Origin: Clostridia bacterium
Lineage (GTDB): Bacteria; Bacillota; Clostridia; Oscillospirales; RGIG8002
Length of the DNA stretch: 43,640 bases
Direction of reading: 5' to 3'
NCBI GenBank assembly: GCA_017438525.1
Contig: JAFRVI010000076.1
Span: 1 to 43,640 of the forward strand
Shown: one piece after another, positions 5,029 through 43,640 of the stretch
Layout: each line of letters opens with the position of its first letter
Numbering within the stretch: position 1 is the stretch's first letter
Translations under genes and position numbers: made by a program
Notes under the pieces: model-generated
Databases searched by the model: none
What the model was told of the DNA's origin: nothing
The model's input: only the letters and a program-made list of their open reading frames with translations

Positions 5029-5131
5029 ATCGTCAAGCCTCCGTTTAAGTTTATCGGTTCCGGCAAGCATAATTATATAATACGCCGGCGCAGCACAATA
5101 CGGACATTAAATATACACGCGCACAGTTTTT

Positions 5132-5236: not shown

Positions 5237-5794
5237 TCAGCTCTTCGCGGCGCGGCGGAGCATCTCCTCCGGCACGCCGCGATGCAGAGCGCACAGGCGC
5301 GCCGCCCAGGCGCGCACGTCGGTCTTCATCCCGCCGGCGAGCCAATCCGCCACGATGCCGAAAAATGCGCACTTATAGAAGCCGGCGATCACTCCCCGGT
5401 CGCCTTCGCTTATCGGCGCCGTCGGCGGAACGCGCTTTGAATACGCCTCCACGATATAGTCGCAGACCTTCCAGAGATAGCGCTCAAAGATGTCGCGGCT
5501 GATGGAGTTATAGATGTGCAGTATCGCGCGGCGGTTTTCGCTGCCGAAGTCGATCGCGGCGCTTATCGCGTCCTCGGCGGAGTCGATGGTCGGGTGCGCG
5601 GAGATGATGCGCTCGGCCTCCTCGGTGATGATCTCCTCGATCAGCGCGGGGATGTCGTCATAGTGGTAATAGAAGGAGTTGCGGTGGATCCCGCATTCGT
5701 CAACGATCATCCTGACGGTGATGCGGCTCAGCGGGTTTTTATCAAGAAGAGCCATAAATGCGGATTTTATCGCGGTCTTCGTGAAGTTCGGCAT
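5237..5794 (-). CDS. TetR-family transcriptional regulator
   Basis: A 185-residue repressor. The N-terminal helix-turn-helix is visible (residues ~8-50: ITVRMIVDECGIHRNSFYYH, then YDDIPALIEEI). The C-terminal half resembles the TetR_C_8 type seen in regulators of the dihydroxyacetone-kinase group. The frame continues upstream through the divergent gene as an artefact; the real start is the ATG at 5794, which has a GGAGG site and gives the usual family length. It is transcribed divergently from the TIM-barrel isomerase gene at 5918. A perfect 10-bp inverted repeat in the 123-bp gap overlaps both -35 boxes, so autorepression with co-control of the neighbour is likely. Confidence 0.88.
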   Translation of the reverse strand: MPNFTKTAIKSAFMALLDKNPLSRITVRMIVDECGIHRNSFYYHYDDIPALIEEIITEEAERIISAHPTIDSAEDAISAAIDFGSENRRAILHIYNSISRDIFERYLWKVCDYIVEAYSKRVPPTAPISEGDRGVIAGFYKCAFFGIVADWLAGGMKTDVRAWAARLCALHRGVPEEMLRRAAKS

Positions 5795-5822
5795 AGCGTT
5801 TTCCTCCGTGGAGTTTGATTTG

Positions 5823-5851
5823 ATTATAACATCCGCGCCGCCGGAAATCAA
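5823..5851 (-). promoter_or_regulatory. Sigma-70 type promoter of the TetR gene
   Basis: Minus-strand TTGATT (5851-5846), 17-bp spacer, TATAAT (5828-5823), about 30 bases upstream of the tetR start codon. Confidence 0.75.
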
Positions 5852-5876
5852 GTCGGCGGGCAAAAAGACTTGATTT
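5845..5876. promoter_or_regulatory. Probable TetR operator covering both divergent -35 boxes
   Basis: Perfect 10-bp inverted repeat AAATCAAGTC (5845-5854) / GACTTGATTT (5867-5876) with a 12-bp centre. Each arm contains the -35 hexamer of one of the two divergent promoters, so one bound repressor would block both. Confidence 0.65.
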
Positions 5877-5898
5877 TTCGCGCCGCGCCGGTTAGAAT
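5870..5898 (+). promoter_or_regulatory. Sigma-70 type promoter of the isomerase-like gene
   Basis: TTGATT (5870-5875), 17-bp spacer, TAGAAT (5893-5898). The start codon is at 5918, so the leader is very short. Confidence 0.72.
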
Positions 5899-5917
5899 AG
5901 CGGTGTGGGGTGATGGT

Positions 5918-6772
5918 ATGAAGCTTTGCGTCAGCAGCTACGGATTTTACTGGACGAGAGAAAAAACGCTCGAGGGGCTTATCGCCGTCGTGAACAAGGC
6001 GGCGGAAATGGGCTTTGAGGGCATAGAGTTTATGGAATACGACGAGGTCGGGCTGAAGGAGGCGAAGGCGCTGCGCGCCGCCTGCGCGGCGGCGGGGATA
6101 ACGCCGGTGAACCTCTGCTGCGGCGCGCATTTCGCGACGCCGTCCGCGTCTGAAACGGAAGCGCAGGTCGAGGAACTGAAGCGCCGCGTGGACGTCGCCG
6201 CCGAGCTCGGATGCGTCTTCCTGCGGCACGACGCCGCGCGCGGGCCGCTGCCCGAGCCGTACCCGCAGACCTACGAGGCGGCCGTTCCGTATATGGCGGA
6301 GGGCATACGCCGCGTGACCGAATACGCCGCCTCCGCCGGCGTGAAGACGCTGACGGAGAATCACGGGCAGTTCTCGCAGGACGCCCGCCGCGTCGAATCG
6401 CTCATCAAGGCGGTCGGCCACCCGAATTTCGGCGCGCTCGTCGACATCGGCAACTTTATGTGCGTCGACGAAGACCCGCCCGTCAGCGTTGCCGTTCTCG
6501 CGCCTTACGCGCGCCACGTTCACTGCAAGGATTTCCTTTTCAGACCTGCGTCGGAGGCGGACTCCTGCGCGGACTGGCTGACGACGCGCGGCGGCAACAA
6601 GCTGCGCGGCTGTAATATCGGCCGCGGCGCGGCGAAGGCGGAGCAGAGCGTGAAGGCGCTCCTCGCCGCCGGCTACGACGGCTGGTGGTCGGTCGAATAC
6701 GAGGGCTCCGACCCGCCCGAGCAGGGCATAAGGGAAGGAACGGAAAACCTGAAAAGGTATCTGAGTGAATAA
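5918..6772 (+). CDS. Sugar phosphate isomerase/epimerase-like TIM-barrel protein
   Basis: A 284-residue protein of the xylose isomerase-like / AP endonuclease 2 TIM-barrel superfamily. Likely metal ligands sit in the usual order: Glu in GIEFMEYDE, Glu and His in TENHGQF, Asp in VDIGNFM, His in HVHCKDF, and Glu near the end in WWSVEYEG. These proteins isomerise or epimerise sugars or cyclitols; the substrate cannot be read from the sequence. The ATG at 5918 is chosen because it follows a GGGGTGAT ribosome site, and the longer in-frame opening would start inside the promoter. Single-gene unit, divergent from tetR, ending in a strong terminator. Confidence 0.8.
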   Translation: MKLCVSSYGFYWTREKTLEGLIAVVNKAAEMGFEGIEFMEYDEVGLKEAKALRAACAAAGITPVNLCCGAHFATPSASETEAQVEELKRRVDVAAELGCVFLRHDAARGPLPEPYPQTYEAAVPYMAEGIRRVTEYAASAGVKTLTENHGQFSQDARRVESLIKAVGHPNFGALVDIGNFMCVDEDPPVSVAVLAPYARHVHCKDFLFRPASEADSCADWLTTRGGNKLRGCNIGRGAAKAEQSVKALLAAGYDGWWSVEYEGSDPPEQGIREGTENLKRYLSE

Positions 6773-6776
6773 CGCA

Positions 6777-6804
6777 AAAACGCCGCCCGTGAGGGCGGCG
6801 TTTT
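6777..6804. terminator. Bidirectional terminator between convergent genes
   Basis: AAAACGCCGCCC (6777-6788) pairs perfectly with GGGCGGCGTTTT (6793-6804) around a GTGA loop. It serves both the isomerase-like gene and the alpha-galactoside operon. Confidence 0.88.
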
Positions 6805-6820
6805 CTTACGCGTATACGGT

Positions 6821-8260
6821 TTATTCAATTCCCGCGGCGAGCTTTACGCATTCATAAGCGCCGTCGTAGGCGCCCTGCGCCTTCAGCTCGTTTATGCGCC
6901 CGCAGAAGTGCGGGAGCAGCTCGCGGTCGGTCAGCAGGCGGTCGAGCGCAGCGTTGAGGTCCTTGACGTCGGGGTACTCGTTGTCGGAGTCGCCGAGCTC
7001 GCGGCCGCTGATCGCGCCGTAGACCTCGTGCCCGCCGATGTGCTTCATGAACACCTTCGGGATCGGGTAATAGACGAGCTCGCTCGGCTTCGTCACGAGA
7101 AGGTCGCAGACGGGCATCAGCATGTTCGTGCCGTAGACGGCGCGGAAGATGTCGTCGTCGCAGATGAAGGTCACGCCCTCGGCGTCGCCGTCGCGCAGGC
7201 CGCTGACGAGCTGTTTCAGCCCCGCCCAGTCGTTGCGCAGGAAGCGCGCTTCGTTCTCGACTCCGACCTTCTTCGCCATCATTTCGCAGACGTCGGCGTG
7301 GTCGCCGGCGTTGATGAAGAGCGCCGCCTTCTTCGCCCTGACGTAGGGGAGCAGGTGCTTTATCATCGCGGCGAAGGTGCCGCCTCCGGCTCCGGCTCCG
7401 CCTACGGTCAGCAGGATGCGCAGCGGTCTGCCCGCCTTCGCGCGTTCGATCCTGCGGGCGTTGTCCTCCTCCAGCCCGGCGAGCAGCTCGTGGTCGACGT
7501 AGCGGCCGACCGTCTTCAGCTGCGATTCGGGAATGCCCTTGAGCTGCGTTTTGGCGAAGCCGTCCAGCGTCTTATAGCCGAGGTAGGCGAAGGGCGTCTG
7601 CACGGTGTGTATCGAGCCCTCGGCGAGATGCAGTCCCATCGGCCAGTTATCCGGTATCGCGTTGACGACGTGAGTCATGCCCGCGTGCACCGCGCCCTGC
7701 GCGGGCCAGACGTGGGTGGCGACGTAGGGGATATCCTTCGGGATATTCTTAAAGATCGGCGCGAGCAGTTCGCTGTTTTTCTGATCCTTCGCGTTGTAGG
7801 TTATCTTCTTGAAGCCCTCGCAGTTGAGCGGCTCCCATACGAACCTGTTGAAAAGCCGCGACTTCTGCGAGATGCGGGAGGCGAGGGAATACATGTCGTT
7901 CTGCTTGCGGATCATCTTCGAGCCGGTCGCGTCGAAGGAGGCGAGGTCGAGCCAGTAGGGCGTGAAGCCCAGCGCCTTCGCGCAGGACGCCATCGCGATG
8001 GAGATGCGGTAGTGTCCGAAGCCCATGCGGATGTTGCCGACGATGAGCGGATTCCCGCCGAATTCGGCGTTTTCTTCGCCGAAGACGACGTTTTGAGCGC
8101 CGATGAAGTCGAGCGCCTCGATCGGCTCGAAGGCGAGCTTATAGTCGGCGGCGCTGTCGTCGCCGAACTTTTTGATATAGCTTTTCTTGCTCTTTTCGGC
8201 GGCGCGGACGGTCTTTTTGTCCATCGCGTTGCCAAATATGACGGCCGTTCTGTCGTTCAT
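6821..8260 (-). CDS. GT-B / MurG-like glycosyltransferase-fold protein, function unknown
   Basis: A 479-residue soluble protein. Residues ~65-90 (VGNIRMGFGHYRISIAMA) resemble the N-terminal glycine loop of GT28/MurG and diacylglycerol glucosyltransferases. The C-terminal half has a nucleotide-binding-like LLTVGGAGAGGGTF and a DLLVTKPSELVYYPIPKVF segment like the donor-sugar motif of that clan. No membrane segment or signal is seen. Its ATG overlaps the GH36 stop by four bases (ATGA) behind an AAAGGAG site, so it is the last gene of the alpha-galactoside unit. Family placement is by motif resemblance only. It might transfer galactose freed by the hydrolase or act on a glycolipid; that is a guess. 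Confidence 0.6.
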   Translation of the reverse strand: MNDRTAVIFGNAMDKKTVRAAEKSKKSYIKKFGDDSAADYKLAFEPIEALDFIGAQNVVFGEENAEFGGNPLIVGNIRMGFGHYRISIAMASCAKALGFTPYWLDLASFDATGSKMIRKQNDMYSLASRISQKSRLFNRFVWEPLNCEGFKKITYNAKDQKNSELLAPIFKNIPKDIPYVATHVWPAQGAVHAGMTHVVNAIPDNWPMGLHLAEGSIHTVQTPFAYLGYKTLDGFAKTQLKGIPESQLKTVGRYVDHELLAGLEEDNARRIERAKAGRPLRILLTVGGAGAGGGTFAAMIKHLLPYVRAKKAALFINAGDHADVCEMMAKKVGVENEARFLRNDWAGLKQLVSGLRDGDAEGVTFICDDDIFRAVYGTNMLMPVCDLLVTKPSELVYYPIPKVFMKHIGGHEVYGAISGRELGDSDNEYPDVKDLNAALDRLLTDRELLPHFCGRINELKAQGAYDGAYECVKLAAGIE

Positions 8261-9870
8261 ACGAGCACTCCTTTGTCGGTGAAGTATAGTATCGTTTTCG
8301 TTTCGCCGCCGAGCTTGTATTCGACGCTTATCATATGCCCGCCGCGGCTGAAGCCGGTGACCTCGGCTTCGCGGAAAAGCTCAAGTCCCTGCGCGAGCAG
8401 GGCTTTTTTCGCTTCGTCGTACTCCGCGAGGTTGTCGGAGGTCATCAGCACGCTGCCGAAGAGCGCGTTCAGCGTCAGCAGCGCGCGGCGCTGCTCCGGC
8501 GAAAGCTTCGTATTGCGGTCGCGGAGCAGGAAAACGTCGGGGTCGCAGCCGAACATCCGCCCGTCCGCGAAGGAGCGGTAGACGGTGTTCTGCAGCGTGA
8601 CCTTCGTGGAGACGCGTTCGCGGTGCATATGCCGCATGAACCACTTGTCGTCAAAGTCGAGCGAAACGTCCGGGCCGACGCGCAGGTAGTCGAATCTGCC
8701 TGCGGAGCTCGATAAAGGCGCGCCGCAGCCGAGAATGAGCGCGTCGCCGAGCGCGTCGCGCAGGAAATCGAAGGCGCGGGCGGCGGCCTGCGCGCGGGTG
8801 AGCCCTTCATAGCGCGGCAGGCAGGCGGCGTAGAGGAAGTCCAGCTTGAAGAAGCCGAAGCCCATATCGAGATAATGCTTCAGACAGCGGCGTATATACC
8901 CGAGCGCGTCGGGATTCCCGAGGTCGAGCGCATAGAAACCGGACCAGTTGCAGCCGCACTTGACGAAGCCGCAGTCGTCGCCGCTTTTGAACCAGTCGGC
9001 GTGCTCCGCGAAGAGCTTGCTCTTCTCCTCCGCGACGAACGGCGCGAGCCATATCCCCGGCGTGAAGCCGCGTCCGCGTACGCGTTCGACGACGGGCTCC
9101 AGCCCGTTCGGGAACTTCTCCTTATCGACCTCGAGCCAGTCGCCGACGTGTTCGGCGTAGCCGTCGTCGATCTGGAAGAGGTTGAAGCGGCCGTCAAGCC
9201 CCTCGAGGTCGCGCAGCAGTATTTCTTCGTTGATATTCTGGTAGTAGTTGTACCACGACGTGTAGCCGAAGATCTTTTTGATATCGCGCTTTGGGAAATA
9301 CTCGTCGGGCAGCCCCTTCCACTCGCCGCCGTAAACGAAGTCGCAGACGGTGAACTCCGCGCCGGGCGCGAGCTTCGCGCCGGCGACATCGGAAACGGCG
9401 GAGACTCCGCCTTTCCCGCGGTCGATCTCGAAGACGAGCCAGGCGTTGTTTGAATTGAGGTTTACCGCCCAGCCGCCGTCGCCGCCCTTGGCGTAGAAGA
9501 CGTCGTAGCCGTGAAGCTTGCGGCGCGAATAGGGGTAAAACGTCGCGTCGCCGTAGCGGTCGAATGAGAAGGCGTTGACGAGCTTCCGCGGCAGGCGGGT
9601 GACGTCGCGCTCCTTTTCGCTGAGGCGGCGCTCCGCGCTGTCGGTCCAGGACTGGTAGCCGTTGGTGAAGCAGAGCCCGTCCCTGCTCACGCGGAAGGGG
9701 AGCTCCTCGCGGTATTCGGCGAGCTCGACCTCGTTCTTCGCGCGCGCGGTGACGACGCGGCGCCTGCCGTCGTCGGTCAGGACGACGGCAAGGTCGGCGT
9801 TTTCGGTTTCGTTTATCAGTTCGCGGCGTTCGCCGTCCGCGAAATAGGATAAAGTGAATCCGCGTTCCAT
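8257..9870 (-). CDS. Alpha-galactosidase, GH36-like (clan GH-D)
   Basis: A 537-residue glycoside hydrolase without a signal peptide, so cytoplasmic. An N-terminal beta-sandwich (~1-180) precedes the TIM barrel (~190-460). Landmarks are FGYTSWYNYYQNI, FQIDDGYAEHVGDW, GIWLAPFVAE, and the nucleophile motif FFKLDFLYA (Asp near residue 344). The acid/base candidate is an Asp in RVGPDVSLDFDD (near 400). It is shorter than the ~730-residue classical GH36 enzymes, mainly through a smaller N-terminal region. It lies three bases after the GPH symporter and overlaps the GT-B-like gene, so it should act on the imported sugar. Alpha-galactosidase is favoured; another GH-D alpha-glycosidase activity remains possible. 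Confidence 0.82.
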   Translation of the reverse strand: MERGFTLSYFADGERRELINETENADLAVVLTDDGRRRVVTARAKNEVELAEYREELPFRVSRDGLCFTNGYQSWTDSAERRLSEKERDVTRLPRKLVNAFSFDRYGDATFYPYSRRKLHGYDVFYAKGGDGGWAVNLNSNNAWLVFEIDRGKGGVSAVSDVAGAKLAPGAEFTVCDFVYGGEWKGLPDEYFPKRDIKKIFGYTSWYNYYQNINEEILLRDLEGLDGRFNLFQIDDGYAEHVGDWLEVDKEKFPNGLEPVVERVRGRGFTPGIWLAPFVAEEKSKLFAEHADWFKSGDDCGFVKCGCNWSGFYALDLGNPDALGYIRRCLKHYLDMGFGFFKLDFLYAACLPRYEGLTRAQAAARAFDFLRDALGDALILGCGAPLSSSAGRFDYLRVGPDVSLDFDDKWFMRHMHRERVSTKVTLQNTVYRSFADGRMFGCDPDVFLLRDRNTKLSPEQRRALLTLNALFGSVLMTSDNLAEYDEAKKALLAQGLELFREAEVTGFSRGGHMISVEYKLGGETKTILYFTDKGVLV

Positions 9871-12367: not shown

Positions 12368-15142
12368 TTATCCCAGACTGCTTTCGTCGGCGAGCTTCGC
12401 GGCGACGCGGAGGATCGCGAGCGCGTCGTTGACCGCGATATGTCCGTCTCCGTCGATATCGCCTATCTGTAACGCTTCGGGCGTTTCCGCAACGAGTTTA
12501 GCGGCGATGCGGAGCGCGGCGAGCGCGTCCGCGACGGATATGGAGCCGTCCTTGTCGAAGTCGCCCTTTTTGACGGAGGGCGACGCGCCGCCGTTGAAGT
12601 ATACCTCGACCGCGTCGACGTCGAGCACGAACTGATCGGTGCAGTTAAAGTGGCGGATCATAACGCGGATCGTCTTGCCCGCGAAAGCGCTGATGTCGGC
12701 GGTGTACTGCGCGTACGTCCGACCGTAGTTTATCACCGTTTCGGGAATGACCTGTGTTTCGGTACCGTCGGGAGCGGAGCTTTCGCTGACGTAGACGGCG
12801 AAGTGCTCACGGTAGTCGCTGGTATCCTGACCGCACGCCCAGAGCGAGAGGGTGACCAAACCGTCGGCGGGTATGGTGACCGCGGGAGAGACAGCCCAGT
12901 TGTCGGGAGTCAGCGGGCCGACTTGGTTAACGTAGGATTCGGAGATCAGTATGCCCGTACCCTCGTAGACGTCGAATTTGTCGGTCGTGCTCATGTTCCA
13001 CTTCCAATTATAGCCGTCGCCGTCGGAATCGATGAAGGTCCAGCCCTCGGCGGCGGGATCCTGCTCGAAGTAGAAACCCTTTAATACGTCACCCTTGCCG
13101 GGGAGAACGGTGACGGCGCAGCCGGCGGCGAAGCCGCCCTGCGCGGTGGTCGCGGTTATGGTCGCGTAGCCCTCGCCGACGGCGTGGATAACGCCGTCCT
13201 GCGTGACTGTGGCGACGCTTTCATCGGTGGATTCCCAGACGACGTTGCGGTTCGTCGCGAAGAGCGGGAGGACGGTCGCGTACGCGACGAAGTAATCGTC
13301 GACTGTGAGTTCAACTGCGGGGGGCGTAACGATAATGCCGGCGGCGTTGGCCGACGTGAAGGGGCTGGCGGGCTCCGCCGACGGAACTATGAACATACCG
13401 ACCAGCTCGGCTCCGCCGCTGCAGGCGCGTCCGACGAGGGCCGCCTCGCCGGTGTCCTTCGCTATGCGGTAAATGCCGTCGGTATCCTCGGCGCAATGCG
13501 CCCAGTAGAAGCAGTGGCTGTCGAAGTCATAAGCGATATCCTGCGCGTATTCGGCGTCGATGTTGTTGTTGCGTATCGAACGCGCAGAGGCGGTATCGAG
13601 GTCGATGCTGTAGAACGTGCCGTAGGTGTCTACGCCGTAGCCGACGCCGTTCTCGTCCGCGGCGATGGCGATCAGATTCGAGGGGAGCGAGCCGATCGCG
13701 TCATATTCGAGCGTAATCGGATCTATTCTGACGAGCGTCTTGTAACCGTCTGCGGAGAACAGGGCGAAGAGCTTGTTGCGCGTGTAGTCGTAGGTCATTG
13801 AGAGCGGCTTATAATTTGAGTCAAAGCAATTGAAGACGTAGGTGGCGTTGCTCATATCGCTGAGCGGCGCGACGAAGAAGTTGCCTTCCTTTTCGATAAC
13901 GAATACGTAGCCGTACGCGTAGGCCGTGGCATAAGCGGAGGGCGCATCGGCGTATACGCTGAAAGATGAGGGGTTTACGGAGTTGAACGTAGCCCACTTG
14001 CCGTCGTTATTACTATCCGCGTTATCATAAGCGATGATCGCGTGGATATCGACGCTTGCCGGCTGGATTTTGACGACCTTGGGCTCCGAGTTGTCTTTGT
14101 TGAGTACGGAGCCGTTGGAGACTTTCGAGTTCTCGGGGGCGGTCACGGAGCAGGCGTTGAAGGAAATGCCGCCCTTCCAGCCGTTTATGACCTTGCCGTT
14201 TTCGCACTGGGCCTCGACGCTCGATGCCGTGAAAACGAGGGAGTTCGAGCCGGTAGAGACCAGGCCGCCGGTCGCTCCTTGCGCGTAGACGCTGGCGTTG
14301 TCGAAGGTGACGGTCCTGCCGCTGCCGGAGCAGAGCAGAGCGTTGCCCTGCAGCGACATAAGCGAGAGCTTGCCGCCGCGGGAGGTTATCACGGTGTCGC
14401 CCGTAACGGCGAGTCCGGCGTAGGCGCCCATAGACATCAGCGTTGCGTTGGCGGTGACGATTATCTTCAGGCCGCCGATCTCGCTGTAGACGACGTGCTG
14501 GCTGTGGGACGCGCTGCCTATTATGAAGAACTCATTTGCGATCGGGTCGTAGGAAAACTTCCCGTCGCCCGCGGGGTCAAAGCAGTTGACGCTGTTGACC
14601 TGCTGTCCCTTGATATAGAGCGGATAGCTGTCTATGCCGACGCGGACGTTGTCGATGGCGAAGTAGTCGCCCTCCGGGTCGTCGGTATCGTCCTTGTTAT
14701 ATACCCACATAAGGGTGTGAGCGCCGGCGGGAAGGAGCGCAATGAACTGCGTCCAATCGTTATCGAGCGCGCCGAATTGGAAGACGAGCTCGCTGTCGAT
14801 GTAGAATTCACAGGCGTCCCACGCCGTGCTTTGTCCCTCGCCCCACGCCTTGTAGTCGAAGAATACGGAGGTATCCTTCGTCGGCGCGACGCTCATGCTT
14901 ATCGACGAGTATGAGCCGCTCTGCCCGGCGTTGCCGGACATGGCGAAGGTTCGCCCGCCGTCGTTCTGAACGATCCACGGCACGTTGTTGTCGGTGTTGC
15001 TGCTGATGAAGTGCAGGTTGCCGCCGGAAACGTTAAGCGCGGTGTCGAGGTCGCTCGCCGCAGCGGCGGTGATCGCCGTCAGCGGGAGCAGTCCGAGCAG
15101 GAGCGCGAACGCGAGCAGCACGGAGAGTAAGCGTTTTTTCAT
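12368..15142 (-). CDS. Secreted multidomain protein with C-terminal dockerin
   Basis: A 924-residue exported protein with a Sec signal peptide (residues 1-29, LLGLLPLTAITAAAA). Residues ~30-165 look like a jelly-roll domain ending in FAIDNVRVG. Residues ~170-350 hold a beta-helix-like stretch, and ~360-600 show propeller-like repeats (for example NLIAIAADENGVGYGVDTYG). A Big2-type Ig fold follows (~610-685: VVWESTDESVATVTQDG), then a choice-of-anchor-J/cleaved-adhesin-like domain (~690-850: GWTFIDSDGDGYNWKW). A type I dockerin-like pair of calcium loops ends the protein (~857-924: DFDKDGSISVADALAALRIA and DIDGDGHIAVNDALAILRVA). Dockerins bind cohesins on scaffold or surface proteins, but no cohesin is in this window. 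Function beyond surface or glycan binding is unknown. Single gene with its own promoter and terminator. Confidence 0.82.
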   Translation of the reverse strand: MKKRLLSVLLAFALLLGLLPLTAITAAAASDLDTALNVSGGNLHFISSNTDNNVPWIVQNDGGRTFAMSGNAGQSGSYSSISMSVAPTKDTSVFFDYKAWGEGQSTAWDACEFYIDSELVFQFGALDNDWTQFIALLPAGAHTLMWVYNKDDTDDPEGDYFAIDNVRVGIDSYPLYIKGQQVNSVNCFDPAGDGKFSYDPIANEFFIIGSASHSQHVVYSEIGGLKIIVTANATLMSMGAYAGLAVTGDTVITSRGGKLSLMSLQGNALLCSGSGRTVTFDNASVYAQGATGGLVSTGSNSLVFTASSVEAQCENGKVINGWKGGISFNACSVTAPENSKVSNGSVLNKDNSEPKVVKIQPASVDIHAIIAYDNADSNNDGKWATFNSVNPSSFSVYADAPSAYATAYAYGYVFVIEKEGNFFVAPLSDMSNATYVFNCFDSNYKPLSMTYDYTRNKLFALFSADGYKTLVRIDPITLEYDAIGSLPSNLIAIAADENGVGYGVDTYGTFYSIDLDTASARSIRNNNIDAEYAQDIAYDFDSHCFYWAHCAEDTDGIYRIAKDTGEAALVGRACSGGAELVGMFIVPSAEPASPFTSANAAGIIVTPPAVELTVDDYFVAYATVLPLFATNRNVVWESTDESVATVTQDGVIHAVGEGYATITATTAQGGFAAGCAVTVLPGKGDVLKGFYFEQDPAAEGWTFIDSDGDGYNWKWNMSTTDKFDVYEGTGILISESYVNQVGPLTPDNWAVSPAVTIPADGLVTLSLWACGQDTSDYREHFAVYVSESSAPDGTETQVIPETVINYGRTYAQYTADISAFAGKTIRVMIRHFNCTDQFVLDVDAVEVYFNGGASPSVKKGDFDKDGSISVADALAALRIAAKLVAETPEALQIGDIDGDGHIAVNDALAILRVAAKLADESSLG

Positions 15143-21996: not shown

Positions 21997-22001
21997 TATC
22001 G

Positions 22002-22766
<765 letters not shown>

Positions 22767-22823
22767 AGCGCACACTTCCCTTCGTTACCGCGGTTGCGGA
22801 TTTCTGCATTTTCCGTTTCATAC

Positions 22824-22832
22824 ATTATAGCA
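22824..22832 (-). promoter_or_regulatory. Extended -10 promoter of the parA operon
   Basis: Minus-strand TGCTATAAT (22832-22824), a consensus extended -10 box. No good -35 is seen, as is usual for such promoters. It lies about 60 bases before the parA start. Confidence 0.5.
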
Positions 22833-22883
22833 CATGCGCGAAGAAAAAGAAAGAGTTATTTTCCGCGCCCTGCAAAGCGCGCC

Positions 22884-23369
22884 CTACTCCGCCATTTTGC
22901 CGGAGTTTTTCAGCTTCGGGAAGCCCCACTGCCGCAGCGCCTCGAAGACGCCGACGGCGACGGAGTTGGAGAGGTTGAGCGAGCGCGCCTCGTTTATCAT
23001 CGGGATGCGGACGCAGCGGTCGCGTTCGCGCTCGAGCAGCTCCTCCGGCAGTCCCTTCGTCTCGCGGCCGAAGATCAGCCACGCGCCGTCGGGATACTCG
23101 ACCTCGGTGTAGGCGCGGGGCGCCTTCGTGGAGAAAAAGAAGCGTTCGCCGCCGCACTCGGCGAGGAATTCGCCGAGCGAGCCGTAGTAGGTGACGTCGA
23201 GCAGCGGCCAGTAGTCGAGACCGGCGCGCTTCAGCTTCGCGTCGTCGATCTTGAAGCCCATCGGGCCGACGAGGTGCAGGCGGCAGCCCGTCGCGGCGCA
23301 GGTGCGTGCGACGTTGCCGGTGTTCTGCGGTATCTCCGGCTCGACCAGGACGATATTCAGCGCGGGCAT
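22884..23369 (-). CDS. trmL: tRNA (cytidine/uridine-34 2'-O) methyltransferase TrmL
   Basis: A 161-residue SPOUT methyltransferase that 2'-O-methylates the wobble base of certain leucine tRNAs. Family marks are NIVLVEPEIPQNTGNVART at the start, the LIFGRETKGLP loop and the knot motif IPMINEARSLNLSNSVAV. Two ATGs are close (23375 and 23369); GGAGG touches the first but stands at normal spacing from the second, giving MPALNIVLVEPEIPQNTGN. Divergent from another SPOUT methyltransferase gene. Confidence 0.92.
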   Translation of the reverse strand: MPALNIVLVEPEIPQNTGNVARTCAATGCRLHLVGPMGFKIDDAKLKRAGLDYWPLLDVTYYGSLGEFLAECGGERFFFSTKAPRAYTEVEYPDGAWLIFGRETKGLPEELLERERDRCVRIPMINEARSLNLSNSVAVGVFEALRQWGFPKLKNSGKMAE

Positions 23370-23433
23370 AAGCATACCTCCGTAAAGCGTTTTCCGCCTT
23401 TTCGGGAGAGGCGGTTTTCAACCTTCACCGATA

Positions 23434-23462
23434 AGTATAACCTCCGCCGGCCGATACCGCAA
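23434..23462 (-). promoter_or_regulatory. Promoter of trmL
   Basis: Minus-strand TTGCGG (23462-23457), 17-bp spacer, TATACT (23439-23434). The leader then holds a GGCGG/CCGCC hairpin near 23394-23413. Confidence 0.45.
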
Positions 23463-23502
23463 TAATTATTGTAATTTTTTTGAAAAACTTGATAAAAAAC
23501 GC

Positions 23503-23531
23503 TTTATATTTGCCGATATATATGGTACAAT
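23503..23531 (+). promoter_or_regulatory. Possible promoter of rlmB
   Basis: TTTATA (23503-23508), 17-bp spacer, TACAAT (23526-23531) in a markedly AT-rich 120-base stretch. The -35 box is weak. Confidence 0.35.
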
Positions 23532-23581: not shown

Positions 23582-24319
23582 ATGGCGAATTTCGAACAGC
23601 GCGTCGCCCTCGGAAGAAACGCGGTCGCGGAAGCGATGAAGGCGGGCGAGAGCGTACAGTGCGTATACGTTGCCAACGGCGTTTCGGAATCGGAGGTCTC
23701 GCTGCTCCGGCGACTCTGCCGCGAAGCGGGCGTTCCGCTGAAAAACGTCGACCGCCGCAAGCTTGAAAAATACGGCAGCAAAAACCAGGGCGTCGTCGCG
23801 CTTCTCGCGGACGCCGAATACTCCACCCTCGAGGACGTTTTCAAGCGCGCCGAGGAGAAGGGCGAGCCGCCATTCATAATCGTCTGCGACGGCATCGAGG
23901 ACCCGCACAACCTCGGCAGCATAATCCGCAGCGCCAACCTTTTCGGAGCGCACGGAGTCATAGTGCCGAAGCGGGGCGCGGCGGGGCTGACCGCCGTCGT
24001 TTCAAAAGCGTCCGCGGGCGCGGTCTGGCATACGCCGGTCGTCCGCGTGACGAATATAACCGAAACGCTGAAGGAACTGAAAAAGCGGGGGCTCTGGGTT
24101 TACGGAGCCGACGCGGAGGGCGTTTCCGTCGACGGCGACGTCGATCTTTCGGGCGCGGCCGCGCTCGTAATAGGCGCCGAGGGGGACGGTATCTCCCGCC
24201 TCGTGCGCGAGAACTGCGACGTTATGCTTTCGATCCCGATGCGCGGCGATATCGAGTCGCTGAACGCTTCGGTCGCCGCCGGGATCCTTATGTATCTGTT
24301 TATGGAGGGACGCAAATGA
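23582..24319 (+). CDS. rlmB: 23S rRNA 2'-O-ribose methyltransferase, RlmB/TrmH family
   Basis: A 245-residue SPOUT enzyme with the L30e-like N-terminal substrate-binding domain (~1-75: LGRNAVAEAMKAGESVQCVYV) and the catalytic trefoil knot: FIIVCDGIEDPHNLGSIIRSANLFGAHGVIVPKR, ALVIGAEGDGI and IPMRGDIESLNASVAAGI. RlmB methylates G2251 of 23S rRNA in Escherichia coli numbering; some relatives have other targets. Start at 23582 (MANFEQRVALGRN) behind GGGTGAAGAT; upstream in-frame ATGs lack sites. Its stop overlaps the next gene's ATG (ATGA), so it is coupled to the degenerate P-type ATPase relative. Confidence 0.9.
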   Translation: MANFEQRVALGRNAVAEAMKAGESVQCVYVANGVSESEVSLLRRLCREAGVPLKNVDRRKLEKYGSKNQGVVALLADAEYSTLEDVFKRAEEKGEPPFIIVCDGIEDPHNLGSIIRSANLFGAHGVIVPKRGAAGLTAVVSKASAGAVWHTPVVRVTNITETLKELKKRGLWVYGADAEGVSVDGDVDLSGAAALVIGAEGDGISRLVRENCDVMLSIPMRGDIESLNASVAAGILMYLFMEGRK

Positions 24320-26853
24320 GCAAGGAAAGAGAAAAGGAATATCTTGAAAAGTTAGGCGTGCCCTCGAAGGACTATTCGGGAGTGCCTGTCGACCGCACCT
24401 TCTCGCTGGACGACATCCTGCGCGAGATCGAGGGAGACAAGGCGGTGCCGTTCGCGAAGGAGGAACCGAAGCCCGAGCCCAAGCCCGAGCCGAAACCCGA
24501 GCCGAAACCCGAGCCCGTAAAAGCGCCTGTCATCCTGAACGAAGTGAAGGATCCCACGCCTTCCGCAGAACCTCTGCAAAAGGAAGGGGATTCCTCGTCG
24601 CCGGCGGCTCCTCGGAATGACAGTCACGCGCCCGCGCCGGAGGCGAAACCCGCGCCCACAGCGGAAGAAAAGCCCGCGCCCGTGCAGCTTCCGGAGCCGG
24701 AGATCGCCGCGACCGTCCGCGTTCCCGCCGTGAAGAAAAAGCGCCCGTCGCTTGAGGATACCCGCAGTCTGAAGCTTTTCAGCACCATCGAGATCGAGGC
24801 GCAGCCCGAGGAATACGCCGTCACCGTCGAGGAGGGCGGCGAGCCGAAGGTCGAGGGCGGCACGGTCGTTTTCGCGCCGCCGGCGAAGGAGGAGCCACCG
24901 AAGAAGCGCGCTCCGCGCAAGCCGCGCAACAGCGAGGCGGAGCCGGATCAGCTCTTCTTTGACGGAGCCGGACCGGTCAACGTGATGACAAACGCCAAGG
25001 AGCCGCCGGCGGAGAAGGCGGACGCCGACGCCGTCGCCGCGGGCTTCAAGGAGAGCGTTGAGAACAATATCAGAGAAAACGTCCGCAAGACCTACAACGT
25101 GCCCGAGCCGGAAGAAGCGGCTCCGGACGAGGAAGCCGAATACCACGGCGAGCCGGATGATTACTACCTTGTCGAAGAGGAGCTTCGCGCCCGCCGCAGC
25201 GACGGCGTGCTTAAGACCGTTTTCCTCGCGGCGTGCTCACTGCTGCTGCTCATCATCGACGTTTTCGCGCTGAAATCCGAATCCGCGGCGACCGAACGCG
25301 ACATCGCCGTAGTCTATCTTTTCATCAGCGCGGTCGTCAGTCTGCTGACGCTTGCGTTCAGCATTCCCTTCGTCAAGCGCGCGTTCGCGCAGCTTCAGTC
25401 GCTGAAGATCCGGGCGGAATCCGCCGCCGTGATATGCACGGCCGTCGCGGTGATACAGAATATCGCCCTTATAATAGACCCGTCATACATATCCGAGGGA
25501 ACGGTCGGAGTCTATAACTTCCTGCCCGCCGTGATGCTGTTGTTCATACGGCTCGGCGACCTGCAGATGGTGCGCCACATCCGCGGCAACATGAAGTTCG
25601 TCAGCGAGCGGAAGCGGCTCGCCGCCGCCGTGATGGTCGACGACGAGGAGCTCGCGGAGGACGTCTCCGGCGGCCAGATCTCCGGCGAAGCCCGCCTCTG
25701 CGCGCCGCACCGCACCGACGCCGTCGTCGGAGTGGTCGAAGCGTCCTCAAAGGAGAGCGACGCGGATAATTCCGTCGGCAAGCTCTTCATCGGAGCCGCC
25801 GCCGCGGCGCTGCTGATCGCGCTCGTTTCGGCGATCTGGAGGGGAGCGTCCTTCGGCATCGCGCTGTCGGTGTTCACCGCCGCGCTCTGCGCCGGAACGC
25901 CGCTGATGAGCATTTTCGTCACCGTTCTTCCGCTGACGCGTATCAACCGCCGCCTCAACCGCAAGGGAGGCGCGATCCTCAACTTCGAGTCCGCCGTTGC
26001 CATCGCGGAGGCGAACGGCATCGTCATTTCCGATACGGACGTTTTTCCGGACAGATCCATAATCCTGCACGGGATGAGTCTTTTCAACAACGCGCCGATG
26101 GACGGCGTCATAGCGGATACCGTCAGCGTGCTTAACGCCGCCGGCGGAGCGCTCGGCAAGGTCTTTGAGGGCAGCGTCGCCGATAAGTCCATCCTGCGCG
26201 AGATAGACAGCATCGAATGCGTCGACGAAATGGGCGTCGTCTGTCGCAGTCAGGGCAGGGAGCTCCTGCTCGGCAGCCGCGACTTCATGAAGGCGTATCA
26301 GATACCCGTCCCGTCGTCGAGCTACGAGGCGCGCGTTTCCGGCGGAGACCGCCACGTCTTCTACCTCGCCTCCGATATGCAGCTTTGCGCGATGTACGTC
26401 GTGACCTACGGCGTCGCGGACGTCGCCAAGCGCCGCCTGCGCCGCGCCGAGGACGCGGGGCTGACGCTGCTCATCGCGACGAAGGACACCAACGTTACCA
26501 AAGAGATACTTTCCAACCGCATGAAGCTCAGCAACGCGACCGTCAAGGTCATCAGCGCCCGCGCGCTCGACAAGCTGGAGCGCAGGTATAAGAAGGCGCG
26601 GAGCATTTCCGCCGGCGTCGTCGTCGGCGATGACTGCTGCGCCCTGCCGGAAGCGGCCGTCTGCGCGTCGAAGCTCAAGAGCAGCGTGGCGTTCAATATC
26701 GCGGCGCTGATCGCTTCCGCGGTGATAGGCCTGATCTTCGTCGCGGTCTTCTCATTCGCGGCGACGCCGTCGGCGATCGAGGCGTGGAAGATACTCATCT
26801 ACGCGCTCTTCTGGACGCTGCCCGTGCTGGTGCTGTCGTCCTCGCATAAGTAA
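24316..26853 (+). CDS. Degenerate P-type ATPase-like membrane protein with long Pro-rich cytoplasmic N-terminus
   Basis: An 845-residue protein. Residues 1-298 are disordered and cytoplasmic, with PKPEP repeats (~51-68) and a repeat-derived insert (~71-104). TM helices follow (~300-318, 331-351, 370-388, 398-415), then a small soluble part, TMs ~489-507 and 512-535, a large cytoplasmic part (~545-785) and two C-terminal TMs. Order and local sequence match P1B ATPases: CAGTPLMSIFVTVLPL in place of the CPC helix, NRKGGAILNFESAVAIAEANGIVIS before the phosphorylation loop, LLLGSRDFM, ATKDTN in place of TGDN, VVVGDDCCALPEA in place of GDGxND. The DKTGT motif is absent (SDTDVF at 572-577) and no TGES actuator loop is seen. 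So it most likely cannot pump ions. A sensory or scaffolding role is my inference. It is coupled to rlmB by ATGA. Confidence 0.7.
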   Translation: MSKEREKEYLEKLGVPSKDYSGVPVDRTFSLDDILREIEGDKAVPFAKEEPKPEPKPEPKPEPKPEPVKAPVILNEVKDPTPSAEPLQKEGDSSSPAAPRNDSHAPAPEAKPAPTAEEKPAPVQLPEPEIAATVRVPAVKKKRPSLEDTRSLKLFSTIEIEAQPEEYAVTVEEGGEPKVEGGTVVFAPPAKEEPPKKRAPRKPRNSEAEPDQLFFDGAGPVNVMTNAKEPPAEKADADAVAAGFKESVENNIRENVRKTYNVPEPEEAAPDEEAEYHGEPDDYYLVEEELRARRSDGVLKTVFLAACSLLLLIIDVFALKSESAATERDIAVVYLFISAVVSLLTLAFSIPFVKRAFAQLQSLKIRAESAAVICTAVAVIQNIALIIDPSYISEGTVGVYNFLPAVMLLFIRLGDLQMVRHIRGNMKFVSERKRLAAAVMVDDEELAEDVSGGQISGEARLCAPHRTDAVVGVVEASSKESDADNSVGKLFIGAAAAALLIALVSAIWRGASFGIALSVFTAALCAGTPLMSIFVTVLPLTRINRRLNRKGGAILNFESAVAIAEANGIVISDTDVFPDRSIILHGMSLFNNAPMDGVIADTVSVLNAAGGALGKVFEGSVADKSILREIDSIECVDEMGVVCRSQGRELLLGSRDFMKAYQIPVPSSSYEARVSGGDRHVFYLASDMQLCAMYVVTYGVADVAKRRLRRAEDAGLTLLIATKDTNVTKEILSNRMKLSNATVKVISARALDKLERRYKKARSISAGVVVGDDCCALPEAAVCASKLKSSVAFNIAALIASAVIGLIFVAVFSFAATPSAIEAWKILIYALFWTLPVLVLSSSHK
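24527..24623 (+). repeat. Small palindromic repeat inserted in frame in the ATPase-like gene
   Basis: A 97-bp segment bounded by CTGTCAT (24527-24533) and ATGACAG (24617-24623), containing CATCCTGAACGAAGTGAAGG on the left and GGATTCCTCG on the right. This has the form of the widespread intergenic TCATCCTGA...GAATGACA repeats. It is read as VILNEVKDP...RNDS, so the repeat sits inside a disordered coding region without breaking the frame. Single half-copies occur near 29990 and 41076. Confidence 0.7.
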
Positions 26854-31040: not shown

Positions 31041-32873
31041 ATGAAAAAAACCGCTGCCGTCATTCTCACGCTGACGCTGCTGCTCGGACTCTTTCCGGCG
31101 GCGCTCGGACCCGTGACCGCGAAAGCGAACACTTACAAAAATATCGTGAAAACGCTGTATGAAAACGCCTTCGAGACCAACCCCTTCAAAGGGAGCTGGA
31201 CGAGCAAGGACGCCGACGGAGACGGACACGACTGGACTTTCTTCACTTCTTCGAGCGCAGTCGCCCACAGCGGCAACGGCGCTATGATGTCGCGCTCCTA
31301 CGACGACGCCGGCCACCCGCTCTTCCCGAATAACTGGCTCGTTTCGCCCTATATCGATATCCCGCTCACCGGTTATACGTATATCGGCTTCTGGGCGAAG
31401 GGTATGGACGCGGATCGCCCCGAGGAATGCTTCAACATCAGTTATATAGATAAAGAATTACCCGGCGCGCCTACCGTGCTGTCACAGACCTGTACCACCG
31501 GCGGCGAATGGAACTCATACGTTTTTGACCTTACGCAATTCGCCGGCAGGACGATATCCATCGTCATAGCGCATACGCAGCCGGAGTCCGCGTTCAATCA
31601 TTCCGCGCTCTGCATCGACGATTTCCTCGTTGATAATCACAGGTCCGTTGCGTGCATGCTTGACGAGGATTTCGAGACGGATCCCTTTGACAGAGGATGG
31701 GAAGCGATCGAATACGACGGCGACGGCTTCAACTGGGATTACTATTACGGAACGGGCTCACAAGGCAGATCGCACGGCGGAAACGGCTCCGTCTTTTCGC
31801 TGTCTTACGACGAAGCGGCGGGCAAACCGCTCGAAACGATCCACTGGTTGTATTCGCCATACTTCACCGTGCCGGAGGATGACTGGACGACGCTTCGCTT
31901 CTGGGCGAGGGAGTTCGATCCCAAAGGCACGAAGAATGATTATTTCAGAGTCGCGTATAAAGTGCAGGGAGGCACCAACGCCTACGTCATCACGGACACA
32001 ACGAAAACGGCGGCCAACTGGAAAGAATATACCGTCGACCTGACCGGTCTTGCCGGCAAAACGGTGCAGCTCGTTTTTATTCACTCGACTTATAACGGGT
32101 ATCAGCTCTTACTGGACGATATATCCGTCACCAACGAGAAGGACCCCTACGGGATATACAGTTACGATTTCGAGGAAGACCCGTTCCTGAACGGCTGGAC
32201 GAGGACGGACGCGGACGGGGACGGTATCGACTGGTTCTGGTCGCATCCCGTTCCGACGCTGCAAGACGGCACGCGCCTTTCGCGCAGCGGAACGGGCGCG
32301 GTCTGCTCGGAGTCGTTCTACGATACGAAGGCGCTGACGCCGAATAACTGGCTCACGAGCCCCTTCTTCGACGTCCCGGCGGAGGGCGAAACGACGGTTT
32401 ACTTCTGGGCGCGCGGCTCCGCGACCGGAGCGGACGCCGAGAAATTCAACGTCAGCTATTTGATTTACGGCGAGCCGCAGATCCCGACCGTGATTTCGGA
32501 GACCTTCACCTCGAAATACGAATGGCAGCGGTTCTCCGTGACGCTGCCCGATAACCTTAAAGGCAAGCGCGTCCGCGTCACGATCGCGCATTGCGACTGC
32601 ACGGATATGTACCGCCTCTACCTCGACGATTTCTACGTGCGCTGCGTGCCGCCTGAGAAGGCGGACGTGATGAAGGGCGATATGGATAAAGACGGCGAAA
32701 TCACCGTAGCCGACGCCCTCATGGCGCTGCGCATCGCGGCGAAACTCGCCGACGCGAGCGACGAAGCGGTCGCCGTCGGCGACGTCGACGCCGACGGAAG
32801 CATCACCGTAGCCGACGCGCTCGCGATCCTCCGCGTCGCCGCGAAGCTCGCGGATCAGAGCAGTCTGGGATAA
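31041..32873 (+). CDS. Secreted protein with three adhesin-like jelly-roll domains and a dockerin
   Basis: A 610-residue exported protein: signal peptide (~1-28), then three copies of the same ~160-residue domain at about 37-197, 205-363 and 370-535. Each begins with a DFE-x-DPF...GW-x-x-x-DADGDG-x-DW motif, continues with NNWL-x-SP-x-x-D-x-P and ends near DDF-x-V. This matches the choice-of-anchor-J/cleaved-adhesin (MAM-like) type. A dockerin-like pair of calcium loops follows (DMDKDGEITVADALMALRIA and DVDADGSITVADALAILRVA). Its last residues (AAKLADQSSLG) nearly equal those of the protein at 12368-15142, and the jelly-roll copies resemble its penultimate domain, so the two are likely displayed in the same way. 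No catalytic domain seen. Confidence 0.82.
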   Translation: MKKTAAVILTLTLLLGLFPAALGPVTAKANTYKNIVKTLYENAFETNPFKGSWTSKDADGDGHDWTFFTSSSAVAHSGNGAMMSRSYDDAGHPLFPNNWLVSPYIDIPLTGYTYIGFWAKGMDADRPEECFNISYIDKELPGAPTVLSQTCTTGGEWNSYVFDLTQFAGRTISIVIAHTQPESAFNHSALCIDDFLVDNHRSVACMLDEDFETDPFDRGWEAIEYDGDGFNWDYYYGTGSQGRSHGGNGSVFSLSYDEAAGKPLETIHWLYSPYFTVPEDDWTTLRFWAREFDPKGTKNDYFRVAYKVQGGTNAYVITDTTKTAANWKEYTVDLTGLAGKTVQLVFIHSTYNGYQLLLDDISVTNEKDPYGIYSYDFEEDPFLNGWTRTDADGDGIDWFWSHPVPTLQDGTRLSRSGTGAVCSESFYDTKALTPNNWLTSPFFDVPAEGETTVYFWARGSATGADAEKFNVSYLIYGEPQIPTVISETFTSKYEWQRFSVTLPDNLKGKRVRVTIAHCDCTDMYRLYLDDFYVRCVPPEKADVMKGDMDKDGEITVADALMALRIAAKLADASDEAVAVGDVDADGSITVADALAILRVAAKLADQSSLG

Positions 32874-41591: not shown

Positions 41592-43640
41592 ATGAAAAAC
41601 AAACTGACGAAAAAACTGCTCAGCGCGGTGCTCAGCGTCGCGATGCTGCTCTCGCTCGTGCCTGCCGCGAGCCTGACGGCGTGGGCGGATAATGCCGCTG
41701 TCACCTATCTCGATGCGGACGGTAATGAACAGACCTGCACGGAGTACACCGTTTTCGACAGCAGCATGACTATGATCGAAGAGGCGGGCTGGTATGTGGT
41801 CAAGGAAAATGTGCCGATCAGCGGGGAAATGTACATTAGCGCTGACGTGAACCTGATCCTTTGCGACAGAGCGACGCTTACCGTAACGGCGGAAACTTAT
41901 GGCGGAGCTGTCAATGGATATAAAAACCTTACGATATATGCTCAAAGCACCGGCGAAGACATGGGTGGATTGAGCGTGACGAATCAACAAAGCTATGGCT
42001 ACGCCCTTGATTTCTCAGACGGCAGTATTATTATCAATGGCGGCAAGATCAGTGCGACCGGTGGAATAAGTATTTATAATGGCGATATTACTATCAATGG
42101 CGGGAACGTTACAGCCGCCGGTGTTTATACTAATGGGATCTGCGCCAGTACTAATAACAACCTTACGATAAATGGCGGAACCGTTACCGTGTCGACAACT
42201 GACAATAGTCACGGCGGCATCGAAATGGGCGGAAATGTGATCGTAAACGGAGGAACTGTCAGCGCGATCGGCGGCTACAACAGTGCCCTCTGCTCCACCG
42301 GTGTAACGGTCAGCGGCGGCGCCCTGACCGTAGCGACAACCATGAGTGGAACTTACGGCATCAACTGCGAAAACAAGGGAGACGTAACGATCAGCGGCGG
42401 CGAGCTTACCGCAAGCGCTCCCGGAGGCGGCATTGCATATGCCAACGTCAAGAACGCCGTCCCCGGCACCGGCTGGACGGATGTCGCCGGCACCTCGGGA
42501 GAGACCGAGATCGCCGTCAGCACCACCGGACAGGATCTGAGCGCCTATAAGAAGGTAGTAATAGGGACCCCCGCGCCCGAACCCGTATCCTATAAGAACG
42601 CGGCGTATGACTCTGCCACCAACACGGTAACCTATACCGACGCAACCTGTGATGATTACACGGCTGTTGCCGCGACCACCACTGAGTGGGGCGCGAGCGG
42701 TACGACGAGCTGGTACGTCGTCAACGACACCGTGGAGATCACAAGCAGCATCACCGTTTCCGGCACGGTCAATCTGATCCTCTGCGACGGCGCGTCGCTG
42801 ACTGCGAGCGCGGGCGTCAACGCCTCCGGCGCGACGCTGAACATTTACGGCCAGAGCGCGGGCACCGGCGCGCTGATCGCCAATGCGGCCAATGGCAGCG
42901 ACGGCGATGATGATTCTAATGGTGGCGCCGGCTCCACCGCCATCACCTGCGGCACGTTGTCTGTCAATGGGGCCGCGGTCACGGCCACCGGCGGCAACGG
43001 CGGCTACGGCTTCAACGGCGGCAATGGCGGCAGCGGTATTTCCGGCAATGTGACCGTCAACGGCGGCACGGTCACGGCCACCGGCGGCAACGGCGGCAGC
43101 GGCTTCTACGCCGGCAATGGCGGCAGCGGTATTTCCGGCAATGCGACCGTCAACAACGGCACGGTCACGGCCACCGGCGGCGTCGGCGGCCAAGGCCATC
43201 AGTTTGGCAGCAACGGCAGCGACGGCAAAGCGGTCACCGGAAACATAACCGCGACCGGAACCGGCGCGACTGTTCAGGAAAGTGATAATAATATCGATTG
43301 GAGTTATGTTTCCGGCGGTTCTTCCGATAAGCGGTTTATACACGGTGAAGCTACCGCCTCCGCGCCCGTATCCTATAAGAACGCGGCGTATGACTCTGCC
43401 ACCAACACGGTAACCTATACCGACGCAACCTGTGATGATTACACGGCTGTTGCCGCAGACACTACAACCTTTGAGGACGGCAAGTGGTACGTTGTTAATT
43501 CGAATGTAACCGTTAACGGAAGCATTACCGTAAACGGCGCTGCAAACCTTATTCTTGCCGACGGATATACGCTGACGGTAACGAAGGGCGTTGCAGTTAC
43601 AGACCCGAGCAGCCTGACGATTTTCGGTCAGGAAAACGGC
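41592..43640 (+). CDS. Repetitive secreted surface protein, 3' end beyond the window
   Basis: Open frame from the ATG at 41592 to the window edge (683 codons, no stop). It has a signal peptide (~1-33, LLSLVPAASLTAWA), then a modular region: a NAAVTYLDADG start, repeats of the form TI-NGG-x-VTATGG that suggest a right-handed beta-helix or Cthe_2159-like carbohydrate-binding fold, and a linker PVSYKNAAYDSATNTVTYT that occurs twice. Residues ~450-550 are a Gly/Asn/Ser-rich GGNGGSG tract. Codon use in the first 600 bases is more AT-rich than in neighbouring genes. Anchoring signals (dockerin, LPXTG or SLH) would lie downstream. A large antisense open frame here is a shadow of the repeats. Confidence 0.8.
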   Translation, partial: MKNKLTKKLLSAVLSVAMLLSLVPAASLTAWADNAAVTYLDADGNEQTCTEYTVFDSSMTMIEEAGWYVVKENVPISGEMYISADVNLILCDRATLTVTAETYGGAVNGYKNLTIYAQSTGEDMGGLSVTNQQSYGYALDFSDGSIIINGGKISATGGISIYNGDITINGGNVTAAGVYTNGICASTNNNLTINGGTVTVSTTDNSHGGIEMGGNVIVNGGTVSAIGGYNSALCSTGVTVSGGALTVATTMSGTYGINCENKGDVTISGGELTASAPGGGIAYANVKNAVPGTGWTDVAGTSGETEIAVSTTGQDLSAYKKVVIGTPAPEPVSYKNAAYDSATNTVTYTDATCDDYTAVAATTTEWGASGTTSWYVVNDTVEITSSITVSGTVNLILCDGASLTASAGVNASGATLNIYGQSAGTGALIANAANGSDGDDDSNGGAGSTAITCGTLSVNGAAVTATGGNGGYGFNGGNGGSGISGNVTVNGGTVTATGGNGGSGFYAGNGGSGISGNATVNNGTVTATGGVGGQGHQFGSNGSDGKAVTGNITATGTGATVQESDNNIDWSYVSGGSSDKRFIHGEATASAPVSYKNAAYDSATNTVTYTDATCDDYTAVAADTTTFEDGKWYVVNSNVTVNGSITVNGAANLILADGYTLTVTKGVAVTDPSSLTIFGQENG
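42582..42673 (+). repeat. Exact 92-bp direct repeat, copy 1
   Basis: Identical to 43365-43456. It encodes the start of a repeated module beginning PVSYKNAAYDS. Confidence 0.92.
43365..43456 (+). repeat. Exact 92-bp direct repeat, copy 2
   Basis: Identical to 42582-42673, 783 bases downstream and in the same frame. The sequence after it diverges from that after copy 1. Confidence 0.92.

Follow-up and report, generated by a model that had tools for sequence, protein, structure and literature searches.

A P1B-ATPase homologue lacking the catalytic motifs is encoded behind rlmB and retained across the Oscillospirales

The window, meaning the whole 43,640-nucleotide stretch that was analyzed (contig JAFRVI010000076.1 of the Clostridia bacterium assembly GCA_017438525.1), contains two overlapping genes on the forward strand. 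The upstream gene encodes a normal SpoU/RlmB protein, as in known RlmB/SpoU methyltransferase operons, and the downstream gene encodes the protein described here, which is referred to as the pseudo-pump. The features assigned to this pair were as follows.

23582-24319, forward strand: rlmB-like gene for a SpoU-family 23S rRNA 2'-O-methyltransferase (Pfam SpoU_methylase, 6e-43; SpoU_sub_bind, 8.9e-11)
24304-24309, forward strand: Shine-Dalgarno-like GGAGGG for the pseudo-pump, within the 3' end of rlmB (from the sequence)
24316-26853, forward strand: pseudo-P1B-ATPase gene, 845 aa, ATG start (from the sequence, the family profile, and the fold)

The longest open reading frame of the rlmB-like gene begins at 23480, and its probable start is the ATG at 23582. 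A promoter-like site was located upstream of it at 23503-23531, the pseudo-pump being the second gene behind this site, and the pseudo-pump ATG overlaps the rlmB-like stop codon by 4 nt (ATGA). The region of about 22000-23500 contains parA/parB and a trmL-like gene in divergent orientation to rlmB, the point of divergence being at about 23.4 kb. The cumulative GC skew has its maximum near 24-26 kb, and together with this divergence a large-scale strand switch is possible there. Elsewhere in the window, Cleaved_Adhesin domains occur in two proteins predicted to be secreted (12368-15142, reverse strand, and 31041-32873, forward strand), which are unrelated to the pseudo-pump. An open reading frame for a 712-aa lipoprotein-like protein without a Pfam match lies beside a gene for an MMPL-family transporter (780-2918 and 2920-5070, both reverse strand), and a large secreted-type open reading frame, also without a Pfam match, is cut by the window (contig) end (41592-43640, forward strand).

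As a single query, the pseudo-pump of the window gave no match in Pfam, NCBIfam, or PDB sequences, and its homology was detectable with family profiles only. When the PDB was searched with a profile built from 26 family members, copper P1B ATPases were matched (3rfu, E=3.6e-31; profile positions 146-420 on CopA 335-611), with the A-domain not covered by this match. The NCBIfam CopA model was likewise matched by 20 of the 26 members, though not by the window protein alone. The fold was then considered on the following predicted core.

25156-26850, forward strand: P1B-like membrane and P/N core, residues 281-845, with eight transmembrane helices (MA, MB, M1-M6) (AlphaFold pLDDT 93.1, pTM 0.89; Z 23.6 to 3rfu)

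The AlphaFold model of residues 281-845 was obtained from a 60-row alignment, the pLDDT given being the mean. Its best Foldseek match was LpCopA (4bbj, E 8.7e-20), and VIA-align superposed it on LpCopA 3rfu over 474 residues with an rmsd of 8.9. The predicted topology is that of P1B pumps, with the eight-helix layout of MA/MB and M1-M6 together with P and N domain folds. This agrees with the first-pass annotation, which had proposed a P1B membrane layout and segment order and had named profile search and structure prediction as the check; an unrelated fold, which would have refuted it, was not obtained. The structural match reflects the homology already detected by sequence and says nothing on function. 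The similarity to P1B-1 (Cu+) ATPases such as CopA (LpCopA 3rfu/4bbj; ATP7B; HMA4) lies in the order of the eight helices, the P and N folds, and the order of segments.

Unlike CopA-type pumps, the pseudo-pump has no DKTGT, TGES, GDGxND, SEHPL His, or CPC, and its A-domain is about half size. These differences were assessed in alignments of up to 92 homologues, with 30 sequences as motif controls, and are located in the window protein as follows.

25609-25758, forward strand: vestigial A-domain between M2 and M3, residues 432-481, without TGES (core model, segment lengths)
25888-25902, forward strand: CAGTP in M4 at the CPC position, residues 525-529; Pro529 in 78/92 (alignment)
26029-26049, forward strand: SDTDVFP at the DKTGTLT position, residues 572-578 (profile match, alignment)
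26146-26148, forward strand: Gly611 at the position of the SEHPL N-domain His (no His in this column, 0/92)
26479-26493, forward strand: TKDTN at the TGDN position, residues 722-726; Asp724 in 90/92 (alignment)
26623-26655, forward strand: VGDDCCALPEA near or at the GDGxND hinge, residues 770-780 (GDGxND in 0/92)

The four replacement motifs SDTDVF, CAGTP, TKDTN, and VGDDCCALPEA had been read from the window protein at first pass, and all were present and in register with CopA. Neither DKTGT nor the GDGxND Mg2+/hinge motif was found in any of the 92 homologues, compared to 30/30 controls for each. Homologues keeping DKTGT would have pointed to a local pseudogene, and none was found. The N-domain His was absent from the aligned column 611 in all 92, and no flanking CPC/CPH/SPC pattern occurred in the aligned M4 columns. 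The absence of a TGES loop, also proposed at first pass, was borne out, as loose [TS]GE[SPAT] tetrapeptides occurred in only 8/92 members versus 28/30 controls. Beyond this, the whole M2-M3 segment was found to be shortened to about 65 aa (47-82 in the family) versus 130 aa in CopA of the same genome. Metal-coordinating residues of M4-M6 were not conserved in the family.

A different set of residues was conserved instead: D/E575, F577, P578, K/R588, Y698, and T722-x-D724-x-N726-I-T, with G640 and G653 invariant and Trp833 of M6 conserved (93% weighted). The remaining Asp at 572/573 and the Asp of TGD could be relics or a hint of residual chemistry. An unorthodox phosphoenzyme acting through Asp572 or Asp573, where SDxDxFP is reminiscent of the HAD phosphatase DxD, was considered on this basis, since Asp is present at 572 or 573 in 83/92 members, Asp or Glu at 575 in 84/92, and the TGD Asp in nearly all. 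However, the putative acceptor is not fixed to one column but shifts between the two, and neither Asp is present in 9 members. All members have lost GDGxND and the N-domain His, the actuator loop is missing as well, and this activity was judged very improbable. We read the data as an active site that is dead and a surface that is preserved; residual chemistry is unlikely but not excluded. It was concluded that the pseudo-pump is a homologue of P1B ATPases but not a functional member, that is, a pseudoenzyme, the absence of ATPase activity being inferred. A passive conduit, in which the membrane domain would be a gated channel or lipid scramblase with the P/N head as its gate, is in keeping with the complete eight-helix bundle and the conservation of Pro529 in M4 and Trp833 in M6. 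It remains doubtful, as M4-M6 are lined by no conserved charged or metal-coordinating residue.

The distribution of the family was deduced from protein and profile searches. Homologues were found by protein search in 91/98 genomes of the order of the window, mostly one per genome, with identities of 83-91% within the genus and about 20-28% beyond. A census with the full-length profile gave 275/295 genomes of this order, the Oscillospirales, and 220/226 of those of good quality (about 97%). Named members include Anaeromassilibacillus (NCBI family Acutalibacteraceae), Caproiciproducens, and Pseudoruminococcus. With the same profile, no member was found in about 370 genomes from the rest of the class, nor in 296 genomes outside the order in a phylum sample; in the class search, members scored 417-628 bits over the full length, whereas the scores of other proteins did not exceed 144 bits and were confined to the P/N part. 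Six well-assembled genomes scored as lacking the gene were examined. One of them, G029, proved to be a contig-end artefact in which the beginning of the gene, including its N-terminal motif, stands behind rlmB. The other five also had no close rlmB match, which may reflect loss of both genes together or a gap in the assembly that spans both.

Phylogenetic analysis of the P/N region grouped the family into a single clade (SH-aLRT 100), set off by a long branch from all of the P1B pumps. Within the genus, dN/dS was 0.09-0.15 for the core and 0.15-0.24 for the tail, indicating purifying selection on both. From the single clade on a long branch and the low dN/dS it was deduced that the loss occurred once, long ago, and was followed by constraint. 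A decaying pseudogene or relic is suggested by the motif loss and by one in-frame TGA in the family gene of each of two genomes (G024, loci L013/L040, and G648), which is either a sequencing error or a real interruption. This explanation is refuted by the selection and census data, namely the dN/dS of the core, the order-wide retention, and the invariant residues, and is given practically no credence. A role in sporulation was not supported with SpoIVA as the marker, as the family occurs in good genomes without SpoIVA (G028, G040, G053, G068, G076, and G082) and is missing in genomes that bear it (G063 and G089).

Real P1B pumps were present elsewhere in the genome in 14/14 genomes checked for them, so the catalytic loss did not cost pump function. 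Their presence, together with a profile closest to Cu-type P1B ATPases, would also suit a dead paralogue that regulates an active P-type ATPase, e.g., CopA, by dimerization or inhibition. Among the conserved neighbors, however, there is no pump gene and rlmB is found there instead, and we consider such regulation improbable.

The neighborhood was compared over 64 loci. In 63 of them, the gene immediately upstream is rlmB, in the same orientation, with a gap mostly of -4 to +60 nt across more than 20 families. In one of these loci, L040, the gap of 1106 nt is only apparent, as it holds the first half of the gene, which is split by the TGA. Coupling to an rRNA methyltransferase gene, as claimed at first pass, was thus right, and the linkage is conserved order-wide. 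The sole exception is L086 (G004, 5469-9784), where the gene lies behind rplU and an obgE-like GTPase gene, both named from sequence without a profile search; this is a move from one ribosome-related (50S) neighbor to another. No other constant operon partner was found in the 64 loci, and an EF-G-like gene lies downstream of the pseudo-pump in 20 of them. In B. subtilis, the gene downstream of rlmB is rae1 (yacP), whose place the pseudo-pump takes in the order of the window. With the clade, the motif losses common to its members, the census, and this linkage, the orthologous clade with a conserved neighborhood that the first-pass annotation had suggested looking for does exist.

These data raise a membrane factor tied to RlmB or 50S assembly, e.g., one whose tail places RlmB or the pre-50S particle at the membrane. 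It is supported by rlmB being the only constant neighbor, by the exception again following 50S genes, and by the five good genomes without the gene, which also have no close rlmB match. Each of these points can be weakened: the linkage may be only a frozen operon, whose neighbors need not share function; the exception is a single locus; and the joint absence may represent one assembly gap across two adjacent genes. Furthermore, members without the tail retain the rlmB linkage. Such a factor, which would be a special case of the platform proposed below, was therefore rated as rather unlikely.

The N-terminal region, in which the pseudo-pump differs from CopA-type pumps, was analyzed separately. 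It contains the following features.

24400-24432, forward strand: N-terminal linear motif FSLDDILREIE, residues 29-39 (24/61 members; motif profile; helix 31-42 in the full-length model)
24433-25023, forward strand: disordered linker, residues 40-236 (pLDDT <50; dN/dS of residues 1-285 0.15-0.24)
24528-24622, forward strand: interspersed repeat of about 95 bp with palindromic ends (TGTCATCCTGAACGAAGTGAAGGATCC...CCTCGGAATGACA), in frame in the linker at about residues 72-103 (repeat matches)

A disordered cytoplasmic front end of about 300 residues had been proposed at first pass. It is indeed mostly disordered, with pLDDT below 50 for residues 40-236 in the full-length model, but its length is closer to 280 residues and two short, weak helices were predicted, at residues 31-42 and 238-259. 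The first of these coincides with a motif, [FY]S[LIV][DE]xILxE, found near the N terminus in members from many families, although the confidence of this helix is modest (pLDDT about 57). A loose form of the pattern was matched within the first 130 residues by 24/61 members, compared to 0.3 expected in shuffles. When 12 genomes were searched with a profile of the motif, the family gene was retrieved in 9 (E 1e-5 to 1e-9) and weakly in one more (0.009), and no other convincing protein was found in the 12. The motif was also present directly behind rlmB in G029, a locus from outside its derivation. An address tag common with LytR-CpsA-Psr proteins was rejected, as the readable N termini of these proteins in six genomes lack the motif and the motif profile was likewise negative. 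In contrast to CopA-type pumps, no N-terminal metal-binding domain was seen, and the pseudo-pump instead bears the disordered tail with its private motif.

The repeat has 36 further matches in its own genome and occurs in dozens per genome in most of the genus. The number of copies within the orthologous gene varies among sister species, with one in the window, two each in G002 and G001, and none in G003. The length of the linker is free between two conserved ends, tolerating repeat insertions while the motif and the core stay. Two findings are new, the helical motif [FY]SLDDILxE and the in-frame insertion of a mobile repeat into the linker that follows it. In the two Ruminococcus-type members L123 and L124, the open frames are longer than 1600 aa, of which more than 1000 residues belong to the tail. 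The f9 members (541-548 aa; L050, L058, L066, and L074) lack a tail, and the motif pattern is matched in only part of the family; therefore, a tether cannot be the whole function.

The explanation that we favor, with moderate confidence, is that a Cu-type P1B ATPase was turned once, early in the order, into a dead, single-copy, non-catalytic membrane platform that is co-expressed with RlmB. Descent from a Cu pump rather than from another P1B class is inferred, as are the platform role and the existence of a partner. The predicted fold was kept while the phosphorylation site, the Mg2+ site, the ATP-binding His, the actuator loop, and the metal site were lost. In the proposed mechanism, the eight-helix bundle would serve as a membrane anchor, and the frozen P/N head may provide a binding surface with the new conserved set from D/E575 to T-x-D-x-N-I-T. 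In most members, the flexible tail is presumed to expose FSLDDILxE as a short docking helix for a partner in the cytoplasm. The first-pass annotation was correct on the sequence and, to the extent that the present data can test it, on its interpretation. The role as a sensor, scaffold, or regulator suggested there remains an inference, and nothing shows what the pseudo-pump binds. A more ambitious proposal is a membrane hub, belonging to the core gene set of the whole order and possibly essential, that would use its private tethered motif to recruit cytoplasmic machinery, perhaps for 50S assembly via RlmB; this is unlikely on present evidence but not negligible.

The defining feature of P-type ATPases is the DKTGT Asp that becomes phosphorylated, and no non-catalytic family was retrieved from one review by a word search for pseudo, inactive, and degenerate (PMC10654040). 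Our literature search found no paper on a bacterial pseudo P-type ATPase. The guanylate cyclases of Plasmodium and Toxoplasma with an appended P4-ATPase domain are similar in that an ATPase body is used for signalling rather than as a plain pump; they retain the Asp of DKTGT, and their ATPase domain is reported to matter through its activity (PMC7858053). Unlike these eukaryotic P4 proteins, the pseudo-pump has lost the site, is of the P1B type, and is bacterial.

The order of the window includes many common gut and rumen bacteria. The pseudo-pump is an order-specific core gene in this group without a Pfam or NCBIfam name, and its N-terminal motif offers a direct handle on the partner. A clade that lost DKTGT once, together with the ion site, and that is kept in about 97% of well-assembled genomes would imply that the P1B scaffold is useful without pumping. 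If the hub proposal were true, the family would stand as a bacterial class of non-catalytic P-type ATPases.
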